Origin: Clostridia bacterium
Lineage (GTDB): Bacteria > Bacillota > Clostridia > UBA1381
NCBI GenBank assembly: GCA_017443895.1
Contig: JAFSXU010000034.1
Coordinates: 62,001-126,000, forward strand
DNA length: 64,000 nt
Direction: 5' to 3'
A program made the position numbers and the translations under genes. The notes beneath the pieces are model-generated. The model saw only the letters and a list, made by a program, of their open reading frames with translations. It did not search any database and had not been told where the DNA came from. This document shows positions 10,407-64,000 of the stretch, one piece after another. Positions within the stretch are counted from its first letter, which is position 1; each line of letters begins with the position of its first letter.

Positions 10407-10691
10407 AAAATTCACCGTCAAGGTGAATTTTCAGACTGTTGAAAAACTGCCCAGACCGCACAAAACTTAAATAATATGGCTTGCATCCATATATAACTTA
10501 TTATCATAAATAATACTGCCGTTATTTTCCAAAAAAACGGCAGTATTATGTGCTTTTTGTTCAAATAAACCCTACCGTACCACCGTACTGCTACGGGTTC
10601 ATTTTCACAAAATCTGGTTTGTTGTTCAATGTCTGCCAGCGTGTCGATAACTTTATCGACACGCTGAAAATTCACCGTCAAGGTGAATTTT
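10407..10691. mobile_element. structured MITE-like element, copy 1, with 25-bp direct flanking repeats
   Basis: A 235-bp interior (10432-10666) begins CAGACTG and ends CGACACGCTG. It is bracketed by two identical 25-bp direct copies (10407-10431 and 10667-10691) of a terminator-like hairpin with stem AAAATTCACC/GGTGAATTTT and loop GTCAA. Interior hairpins are ATATGG/CCATAT (10474-10492), a 14-bp stem at 10510-10549, stem CCC/GGG around CTACCGTACC (10570-10597) and a perfect 14-bp stem at 10637-10666. Four boxes (TGAAAAACT, TGCTTTTTG, CTACCGTACC, ACAAAAT) recur at 61789-62066 with nearly constant spacing. It fills the convergent gap between the GT2 and GT4 genes. No credible coding capacity was seen. 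Confidence 0.7.
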
Positions 10692-15319: not shown

Positions 15320-15395
15320 CGGGGTGTAGCGCAGGTGGTAGCGCACTTGACTGGGGGTCAAGGGGCCGCAGGTTCAAGTCCTGTCACTCCGACCA
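15320..15395 (+). tRNA. tRNA-Pro (anticodon GGG)
   Basis: A 76-nt cloverleaf. The acceptor arms CGGGGTG and CACTCCG pair with one G-T wobble. The D arm is GCGC...GCGC, the anticodon stem CTTGA/TCAAG holds loop CTGGGGG with anticodon GGG, and the T arm is CAGGTTCAAGTCCTG. ACCA at the 3' end is encoded. A terminator follows directly. Confidence 0.95.
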
Positions 15396-15397
15396 TG

Positions 15398-15425
15398 AAA
15401 AAAGCACGCTTCGGCGTGCTTTTTT
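15398..15425 (+). terminator. terminator after tRNA-Pro
   Basis: Stem GCACGC/GCGTGC with TTCG tetraloop, flanked by an A-run and a T-run, directly after the tRNA. Confidence 0.92.
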
Positions 15426-15429
15426 CAAC

Positions 15430-15600
15430 GAAATACGCCTTGCGGCGTGTGAAATATTGCTCCGCAATGTGAAATAGCAACGCTATGAAATATTTGCTTT
15501 GCAAATGTTAAAGGCGTATTTCATTTCACTAAAAGCGTATGCTTTCTATTTCACAATTTACGCTGTAAATTATTTCACATCAACGAAGTTTATATTTCAC
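15430..15600. repeat. array of mini-hairpins spaced by GTGAAAT / ATTTCAC
   Basis: Short palindromes alternate with a constant heptamer: ACGCC/GGCGT, ATTGC-TCC-GCAAT, ATAGC-AAC-GCTAT and ATTTGC-TTT-GCAAAT are joined by (GT)GAAAT. Then AAAGC-GTAT-GCTTT, AATTTAC-GCT-GTAAATT and AAC-GAA-GTT are joined by ATTTCAC, the reverse complement. GAAATACGCCTT (15430-15441) and AAGGCGTATTTC form a 12-bp inverted repeat around the first four, so the whole can fold as one branched structure. It lies between the tRNA terminator and the secD promoter; the rest of that gap is AT-rich without features. Confidence 0.65.
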
Positions 15601-61788: not shown

Positions 61789-62066
61789 AGGGTGTTGTAT
61801 ACACAACACCCCCAGAGCACTGACAAACTCGGTCTAACGCAAGCATTTTTATTGTCTTTGAATGAAAATGCTTTTTTATGTAATTGTATGTTGGCGGTGC
61901 GGTTTCAGAGAAAACCGCACCGTTGCTTGCTTTTTGCCCTTTAAACCTCTACCGTACCTTTGTACGCCGACGAGATTTAAAGGACAAAATATACCTTCGT
62001 TTCTCAGCCTCTGCTCAGACTGATGACTTTGTCATCAGTCTGAGGGTGTTGTATACACAACACCCC
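61789..62066. mobile_element. structured MITE-like element, copy 2, with 24-bp direct flanking repeats
   Basis: A 230-bp interior (61813-62042) begins CAGAGCACTGAC and ends GTCATCAGTCTG. It is bracketed by identical 24-bp direct copies of a hairpin with stem GGGTGTTGT/ACAACACCC and loop ATAC (61789-61812 and 62043-62066). Interior hairpins are AAGCATTTT/AAAATGCTT (61841-61873), an 11-bp stem at 61895-61922, the CTC/GAG stem around CTACCGTACC (61947-61974) with outer CCTTTAAA/TTTAAAGG, and a 12-bp stem at 62016-62042. TGACAAACT, TGCTTTTTG, CTACCGTACC and ACAAAAT match copy 1 in order and spacing. It fills the gap between leuS and ligA. Confidence 0.7.
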
Positions 62067-62073
62067 TTGAATT

Positions 62074-64000
62074 TTATTTTACAACTATATTTACCAATCT
62101 TTTCGGTATCGCAATTACCTTGACAACGGTTTTACCCTCAGTTAAGCCTTTAATCCTTTCTGAATTAAGAGCCGTCTGTTCAAGTCCTTCCTTGTCGATA
62201 TTTGCGCTAACCATCATTTTATCCTTTACCTTACCGTTTATCTGGACAACTATCTCAATCTCATCATCAACGGTTTTTGCCTCATCGTACTTTGGCCATT
62301 CGGCAATTGAGAGATAACCGCCGTCGCCGTATGTGAGCCATAATTCCTCCGTCATATGCGGTGCAAATGGGTTTAATAAGGTTATAAAGGTCTTATACTC
62401 ACCCTTTGTAACAGAGCCTTTTTTGCTAAAGTCATTTACAAGCGACATCAAGGTTGCAATGGCGGTATTGAATTTCATTCTCTCAATATCGTCACTGACC
62501 TTTTTAATGGTCTTGTGCATTGCCTTTTCCAAATCAGCGCTATATCCGTCATCATCATTTACAATACTCTGTAAATTCCAGACACGCTCAAGGAATTTAT
62601 AACAGCCTTTTAAGCCCTTTTGCGACCATGGTGTTGTCTGGTCAAATGCACCGATAAACATTTCATATGTTCTGAATGCATCCGCACCAAACTCGTCTAC
62701 AACCTCATCGGGGTTTACCACATTACCCCTTGATTTTGACATCTTCTGATTATCCTCGCCCAAAATCATACCGTGCGAGGTACGCTTCATATACGGCTCC
62801 TTTGTAGGTACTGCGCCAATATCATAAAGCACCTTATGCCAGAACCTTGAATAGAGTAAATGAAGGGTTGTATGCTCCATACCGCCGTTATACCAATCAA
62901 CAGGTGACCAGTATGAAAGTGCCTCCTTTGATGCAAATGCCTCATCGTTATGCGGATCCATATATCTTAAATAGTACCAGCTTGAGCCTGCCCACTGTGG
63001 CATTGTATCGGTTTCACGCTGTGCTCTTCCGCCACAGCACGGGCAGGTAGTTTCTATCCAGTCATATGCCTTTGCAAGCGGAGATTCGCCGTTCTCGCCC
63101 GGCTCAAAGGTTTCAAGCTCGGGTAATTCTAACGGCAATTCACTCTCGGGTATTGCCACCCAACCGCATTTTGGACAGTTTACAAGCGGAATAGGCTCGC
63201 CCCAGTAACGCTGACGGGAGAATACCCAGTCACGCAATTTATAATTTACCTTACGCTTGCCCTTACCCTGTTCTTCAAGCCAGTTAATCATAGTCGGGAT
63301 TGCTTCCTTTACAGGTAAGCCGTTTAAAAATCCCGAATTTACCATTTCGCCCTTATATACATCTGTATATGCGGCCTCTTGCACATTTTCGCCACCCGAT
63401 ACTACCTCAATTATAGGCAAATTAAACTTCTTTGCAAAGTCCCAGTCACGGCTATCGTGTGCAGGTACCGCCATAATCGCACCTGTTCCGTATGTTACAA
63501 GTACATAGTCTGAAATAAATACAGGTAAATCCTCGCCGTTTGCAGGATTTTTAGCGGTTACACCCATAAGTCTTACACCTGTTTTATCCTTTGCAAGCTC
63601 TGTTCTTTCAAACTCGGATTTTCTTGCCGCCTGTGCCTTATATTCGAGTACCTCGTCATAGTTTGTAATTGAGTCCTTCATCTTCTCAACCAACTCATGC
63701 TCGGGCGACAGTACAACATATGTTGCACCGAATAATGTATCGCATCTTGTGGTGTATACAACCATTTCATCGCCTGTTGAGAGTTCAAATGTAACCTCTG
63801 CGCCCTCTGAACGGCCAATCCAGTTTCTTTGCTGGATTTTTACCTTTTCAAGATAATCAACCTCGTCCAAATCGTCAATAAGACGCTGTGCATACTCGGT
63901 TATCTTTAACATCCACTGGCTCTTTCTGCGCTGTACAACCTCGCTTCCGCAACGCTCGCAAACGCCGTTTACAACCTCCTCGTTTGACAAGCCGACCTTA
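62074..64000 (-). CDS. leuS: leucine--tRNA ligase, N-terminal part beyond the window
   Basis: The frame is open to the right edge, so at least 642 codons of the C-terminal side are present and the 5' end is missing. Visible parts are CERCGSEV, WMLKITEYAQRLIDDLD and NWIGRSEGAEVTF of the connective/editing region, TRCDTLFGATYVVLSPEH and GTGAIMAVPAHDSRDWDFA of the editing domain, the class I KMSKSRGNVVNPDEV catalytic loop, and a C-terminal anticodon-binding region ending IPKRLVNIVVK. A TTG codon at 63990 is internal to the protein, not the start. Confidence 0.97.
   Translation of the reverse strand, partial: KVGLSNEEVVNGVCERCGSEVVQRRKSQWMLKITEYAQRLIDDLDEVDYLEKVKIQQRNWIGRSEGAEVTFELSTGDEMVVYTTRCDTLFGATYVVLSPEHELVEKMKDSITNYDEVLEYKAQAARKSEFERTELAKDKTGVRLMGVTAKNPANGEDLPVFISDYVLVTYGTGAIMAVPAHDSRDWDFAKKFNLPIIEVVSGGENVQEAAYTDVYKGEMVNSGFLNGLPVKEAIPTMINWLEEQGKGKRKVNYKLRDWVFSRQRYWGEPIPLVNCPKCGWVAIPESELPLELPELETFEPGENGESPLAKAYDWIETTCPCCGGRAQRETDTMPQWAGSSWYYLRYMDPHNDEAFASKEALSYWSPVDWYNGGMEHTTLHLLYSRFWHKVLYDIGAVPTKEPYMKRTSHGMILGEDNQKMSKSRGNVVNPDEVVDEFGADAFRTYEMFIGAFDQTTPWSQKGLKGCYKFLERVWNLQSIVNDDDGYSADLEKAMHKTIKKVSDDIERMKFNTAIATLMSLVNDFSKKGSVTKGEYKTFITLLNPFAPHMTEELWLTYGDGGYLSIAEWPKYDEAKTVDDEIEIVVQINGKVKDKMMVSANIDKEGLEQTALNSERIKGLTEGKTVVKVIAIPKRLVNIVVK

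Follow-up and report, generated by a model that had tools for sequence, protein, structure and literature searches.

The IS1182 family of transposons includes IS1272 and TnSha1 (PMC4923244, PMC5678879). This family targets inverted repeats, many of which are transcription terminators, without primary sequence preference (PMC4923244, PMC5678879). IS1272 reportedly inserts at terminator hairpins, deletes its target stem-loop, and leaves no duplication (PMC4923244, PMC5678879); a stem-loop on both sides has been drawn solely as a hypothetical pathway (PMC5678879). Small gene-free elements such as RUP, BOX, SPRITE, and QMITE form another comparison group, and some QMITEs give rise to small RNAs (PMC10969869). 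Group IIC introns are known to insert at intrinsic terminators. The bottom strand of the integron attC site is strand-specific folded DNA, and is a possible analogue. Nothing matching a MITE of IS1182 in terminators was found in the literature searched.

The window is the whole stretch of 64,000 nt of DNA that was analysed. It is contained in the home genome of a Clostridia bacterium (G000; 2.72 Mb, 77 contigs), and carries two copies of an element of 230-235 bp. The element has no genes, and its ends are terminal inverted repeats (CAGACTGTCGA.AAA). These repeats are imperfect (CAGACTGTCGAAAAACT vs CAGCGTGTCGATAAAGT), and the ends of copy 2 are a second repeat type (CAGAGCACTGACAAACT vs CAGACTGATGACAAAGT). 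As in the IS1182 family, the target is an inverted repeat or terminator, and the ends are common with NF033551-encoding elements in related genomes. The differences are that the element lacks a transposase gene, and that none of the autonomous copies searched has its conserved interior fold. Unlike IS1272, the element keeps the whole stem-loop on both sides, and the test for replacement of the IS1272 type was not met. RUP, BOX, SPRITE, and QMITE are likewise small, gene-free, and multi-copy, with inverted-repeat ends and stable folds (PMC10969869); the class-wide covarying interior, the strand-specific fold, the insertion at terminator hairpins, and the hairpin on both sides set the present element apart from them. 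Group IIC introns share the insertion at intrinsic terminators; however, the element has transposon ends and long target duplications, and no intron model was matched. It differs from attC in that its flanks are duplicated terminators and its ends are IS1182-like. The element passed the sequence-level tests for a MITE (short, transposase-free, multi-copy, terminal inverted repeats, target-site duplication, and ends common with an autonomous element). Copies 1 and 2 are therefore very likely terminator-targeting MITEs of the IS1182 type and represent a new family, with mobilisation in trans being inferred.

A preliminary description, made from the sequence alone, had claimed two copies of an unrecognised modular element at 10407-10691 and 61789-62066. 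Both copies were found at these positions, and all of the boxes and spacings that it gave were confirmed as written by re-location in the window sequence. The first box is at 10440 in copy 1 (TGAAAAACT) and at 61821 in copy 2 (TGACAAACT), and CGCA follows 17 nt after it in both. TGCTTTTTG lies at 10551 and 61928, respectively. The step from TGCTTTTTG to CTACCGTACC is 21 nt and that from CTACCGTACC to ACAAAAT is 35 nt in both copies; TCTGC follows ACAAAAT at 25 nt in copy 1 and 26 nt in copy 2. TGCTTTTTG-N12-CTACCGTACC had two mismatch-free occurrences, compared with 0.01 expected per shuffled window even when up to 3 mismatches were allowed. The two spans comprise the element and both of its flanking hairpins. 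The element proper is located at 10432-10666 in copy 1 (235 bp, left inverted repeat CAGACTGTTGAAAAACT) and at 61813-62042 in copy 2 (230 bp), with the minus strand as the folded strand in both. The preliminary description had not seen that the flanking palindromes are duplicated terminators, that the ends are inverted repeats, or that the folded strand is the minus strand; and the ends and target identify the family, which it did not recognise, as IS1182 type. It had named further copies and compensating stem changes as support for its reading. Both were found: about 15 copies, including partial ones, are present in the home genome, several of them at contig ends, with many more across the class, and the covariation of the stems is strong against two controls (shuffled and slid). 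The pattern CTACCGTACC-N3-GTAC gave 12 matches in the home genome, and the reversed control gave 0. Thus, its reading of a conserved structure, either a structured RNA or a structured mobile DNA, is supported, and the evidence points to both, with action at the RNA level being inferred and not shown.

The fold consists of a closing helix P1 that coincides with the terminal repeats, together with P2, a variable P3, a P4 helix of 17 bp whose internal-loop tip is conserved, and P5. In copy 1 (P2 to P4 on the minus strand), one arm of P2 (10457-10462) pairs with 10549-10553 as a covarying helix; P3 is a hairpin at 10512-10547 with the inverted repeat AATACTGCCGTT/AACGGCAGTATT; and the P4 arm spans 10554-10612, where 10554-10572 pairs with 10595-10612 and the hyperconserved tip CTACCGTACC lies at 10572. 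The terminal hairpin P5, with the right inverted repeat, is located at 10637-10666 (CAGCGTGTCGATAACTTTATCGACACGCTG), and is built from two inverted-repeat sequences back to back. In copy 2, also on the minus strand, the P2 arm CGCAAGC (61838-61844) pairs with GCTTGC (61925-61930), P3 spans 61893-61922, and the P4 arm with its conserved tip spans 61932-61989 (CTACCGTACC at 61949); P5 lies at 62016-62042. The covariance model R1 matched the minus strand of both copies, at 10544-10636 (E 3.5e-16) and 61921-62014 (E 4.7e-20), respectively. No Rfam family was found in the elements at the gathering score, and none came near it in a permissive search of copy 1. Elsewhere in the window (15320-15496, plus strand), a tRNA gene is followed immediately by a Gut-1 RNA (RF01706).

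Several unusual forms were also observed. In two copies from Oscillospiraceae SIG454 (L167 and L171), an extra insertion lies inside the P4 tip. The right part of the element occurs as a tandem partial repeat in another genome (L055/L067, G013:C15). The P5 hairpin occurs alone in the home genome (L049, G000:C76:42889-42918), where its two inverted-repeat ends adjoin back to back and the hairpins on either side differ; it might be a minimal unit of 30 bp or what is left after a deletion.

The elements align nearly gap-free after removal of one variable stretch. Among 38 diverse sequences read on the minus strand, standard pairs fill 95.5% of the cells in 40 pairs, and 26 of these pairs show changes on both sides. 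The covariation score of these sequences is 0.450, compared with 0.167 +/- 0.008 for shuffled and at most 0.089 for slid alignments. Because the structure was chosen on the same sequences, the share of paired cells is biased upward; neither the comparison of the score with shuffles nor the asymmetry between the strands depends on that choice alone. The structured-RNA criterion of helices backed by compensatory change was met. The plus strand was at first viewed as the folded one, and this view was dropped after the mismatch types were counted. In a set of 23 sequences, the plus-strand reading is 90.7% paired; this value is lower because most non-standard pairs on that strand are C-A, and these read as G-U on the minus strand. 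On the minus strand, G-U occupies 51 cells and C-A only 4, and the folding energy is lower on this strand in all 38 elements. Changes from Watson-Crick pairs reconstructed on the tree gave 38 to G-U vs 11 to C-A on the minus strand (p 1.4e-4); P3 alone showed no significant strand bias. Selection on a folded minus strand is very likely.

A palindromic hairpin of the intrinsic-terminator type, about 20-30 bp long, lies with its foot exactly at each element end. In copy 1, the left hairpin (10407-10431) is repeated as an identical 25-mer at 10667-10691 (AAAATTCACCGTCAAGGTGAATTTT on each side). A7 precedes the left hairpin on the plus strand, so that the minus strand reads the hairpin and then T7; a T-run follows the right hairpin on the plus strand. 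In copy 2, the hairpin at 61790-61812 is repeated as an identical 23-mer at 62044-62066 (GGGTGTTGTATACACAACACCCC on each side), and the right one lies downstream of leuS (62074-63990, minus strand). The orthologous site at the leuS 3' end in congeners has a single terminator and no element. The flanks were further analysed in 45 elements with both flanks, drawn from many genomes. Hairpins with 8 or more pairs directly adjoin 93% of the left and 98% of the right ends, compared with 6% in shuffled sequences. In 41 of the 45 elements, the hairpin on the left matches that on the right, against a cross-pair background of 1.2%. Some of these hairpin pairs have diverged by compensating changes, as expected of old duplications. 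Four elements (L129, L187, L194, and L069) have flanking hairpins whose loops are reverse complements of each other, as though one hairpin had flipped during or after insertion; in three elements, the two hairpins are unrelated. A U-tract (at least 5 T of 8) is found on the far side of 73% of the hairpins and on the element side of 8% (p 1e-13). Two further copies (L192 and L164) retain P1, but the sequence outside it is unrelated, and they lack recognisable flanking hairpins or standard ends; they may be immobile relatives.

Related genomes contain IS1182-family transposons with like ends at like hairpins (G039, G053, G078, G101, and G120). The partner transposase was confirmed as a member of the IS1182 family (NF033551, 464.5 bits, cut-off 270), and the test for an IS1182 target, a palindrome or terminator, was met. 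In G035, all 18 of 18 terminal bases are common to an IS1182 left end (L127), which lies at a contig edge with the start of a transposase, and the MITEs of that genome (L069). In G120, which also carries the element, almost every one of the 24 IS1182 left ends immediately follows a hairpin. Three full-length IS1182 copies (L150, L153, and L207) have different hairpins on the left and right, unlike the MITEs, and this remains unexplained. No close IS1182 transposase was found in the home genome; the copies there may therefore now be stranded, and the argument for mobilisation rests on the relatives. The interior fold was absent from the autonomous IS1182 loci searched, and thus IS1182 transposition as such does not require it. 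The terminal-repeat matches inspected in ten genomes included no full-length autonomous element with the exact MITE interior; these matches were the element, truncated copies, and the one IS1182 end at the contig edge.

The distribution of the element is patchy. Within the family, pattern matches were found in 12 of 70 genomes, with a separate subfamily in each genus; one of these genomes (G015) looks like a chance match. Across the class, a covariance model of P4, its tip, and its neighbours found the element in 35 of 391 genomes from 26 genera, often with at least 10 copies each and with E values down to 5e-21. A draw from the phylum gave matches only in the home genome, plus one weak match outside the class (G822, E 1e-3). 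The GTDB genomes with exact pattern matches were MAGs of Clostridia and Oscillospiraceae, most of them of ruminant gut origin, with five exceptions in Bacteroidetes or Chlorobi records; these five matches are coding-like and were set aside as chance. The unpaired boxes are conserved across many bacterial families. Three viral contigs (L203 607-815, L236, and L237) carry a GC-richer version with P1, the P4 tip, and P2 (GTCAAAATG:CATTTTGAC). One of these lies just upstream of the terminase small-subunit gene terS, and two lie among phage structural genes. No Rfam family was found in the viral relative, and no close relatives were found in phage or plasmid records. A further viral match (L204) was not supported by the covariance model and was rejected.

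Taken together, it is likely that the element is an IS1182-type MITE with a selected minus-strand fold, a statement that does not include any action as RNA. In the proposed mechanism, IS1182-family transposases would move the element in trans. The transposase would attack the target hairpin at its feet, and repair would then duplicate the stem-loop; this step is inferred. As the U-tracts are on the far side only, transcription of both neighbouring genes should extend into the element and end on its other side. Polymerase arriving from either neighbour would pass the near hairpin, which has no U-tract, cross the element, and terminate at the far hairpin. Termination for the host gene would thus be preserved, and the element would become an untranslated tail. 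At convergent sites, transcripts would be made on both strands. The minus-strand tail might be a structured RNA of about 200 nt, probably protein-binding at the P4 tip, for which there are no binding data. Among 55 classified gene contexts, 32 are convergent, 16 plus-plus, 6 minus-minus, and 1 divergent. In tandem contexts, the minus strand is thus more often antisense to its neighbours (16 vs 6), and at plus-plus sites there is no obvious source of transcription for the minus strand, which weakens the RNA reading. No promoter-like sites above chance were found inside copy 1 or copy 2.

The main rival is that the minus strand folds as single-stranded DNA while the element transposes or is replicated, and that the transposase or a host factor recognises it. 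This remains possible by analogy to attC. In DNA, too, G-T is more readily tolerated than C-A, so the strand bias does not exclude it; the gene contexts show no preference for minus-strand transcription; and P1 coincides with the terminal repeats. However, the fold is missing from autonomous IS1182 elements that have the same ends and target, and a fixed 17-bp helix with conserved unpaired tip bases is, by inference, more typical of RNA. Since the autonomous partners do without the fold, and since the unpaired bases of the tip and the helix length are kept, we lean slightly towards the reading in which the fold acts as RNA rather than DNA; transcription, binding, and function are all inferred.

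It is very unlikely that the element is an ordinary degenerate MITE whose stems persist merely as inverted repeats, without selection on a folded strand. Palindromic interiors are common in MITEs (PMC10969869), and copies within one genome are closely related; yet the covariation is strong against both shuffles and slides, the mismatches are asymmetric between the strands, and the unpaired boxes persist across many families. A stand-alone RNA gene family that lies between paired terminators by chance, with no transposon involved, can be almost ruled out. The few copies without recognisable flanking hairpins or standard ends (L192 and L164) would fit such a family; but near-identical copies occur at unrelated loci, the terminal repeats match IS1182, a copy of the hairpin lies on each side in 41 of 45 elements, and the distribution is patchy.

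The preferred reading, an IS1182-type MITE with a selected minus-strand fold acting as RNA, has a bolder form. The element might be a mobile RNA gene, encoding class-wide structured RNAs of about 200 nt in Clostridia and their phages, which would spread via IS1182 transposition and gain both transcription and a 3' end by splitting host terminators. As a whole, this form has somewhat less than an even chance.

MITEs are usually seen as empty transposon shells. Here, a precise strand-specific fold is kept over many bacterial families, and something selects for this fold. The element is also a clean natural case in which insertion results in a complete terminator hairpin at each flank. As an assembly-breaking repeat, it is worth annotation in gut metagenomes. 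The split-terminator idea would offer a simple and testable reason why such insertions may do the host no harm and benefit the element.
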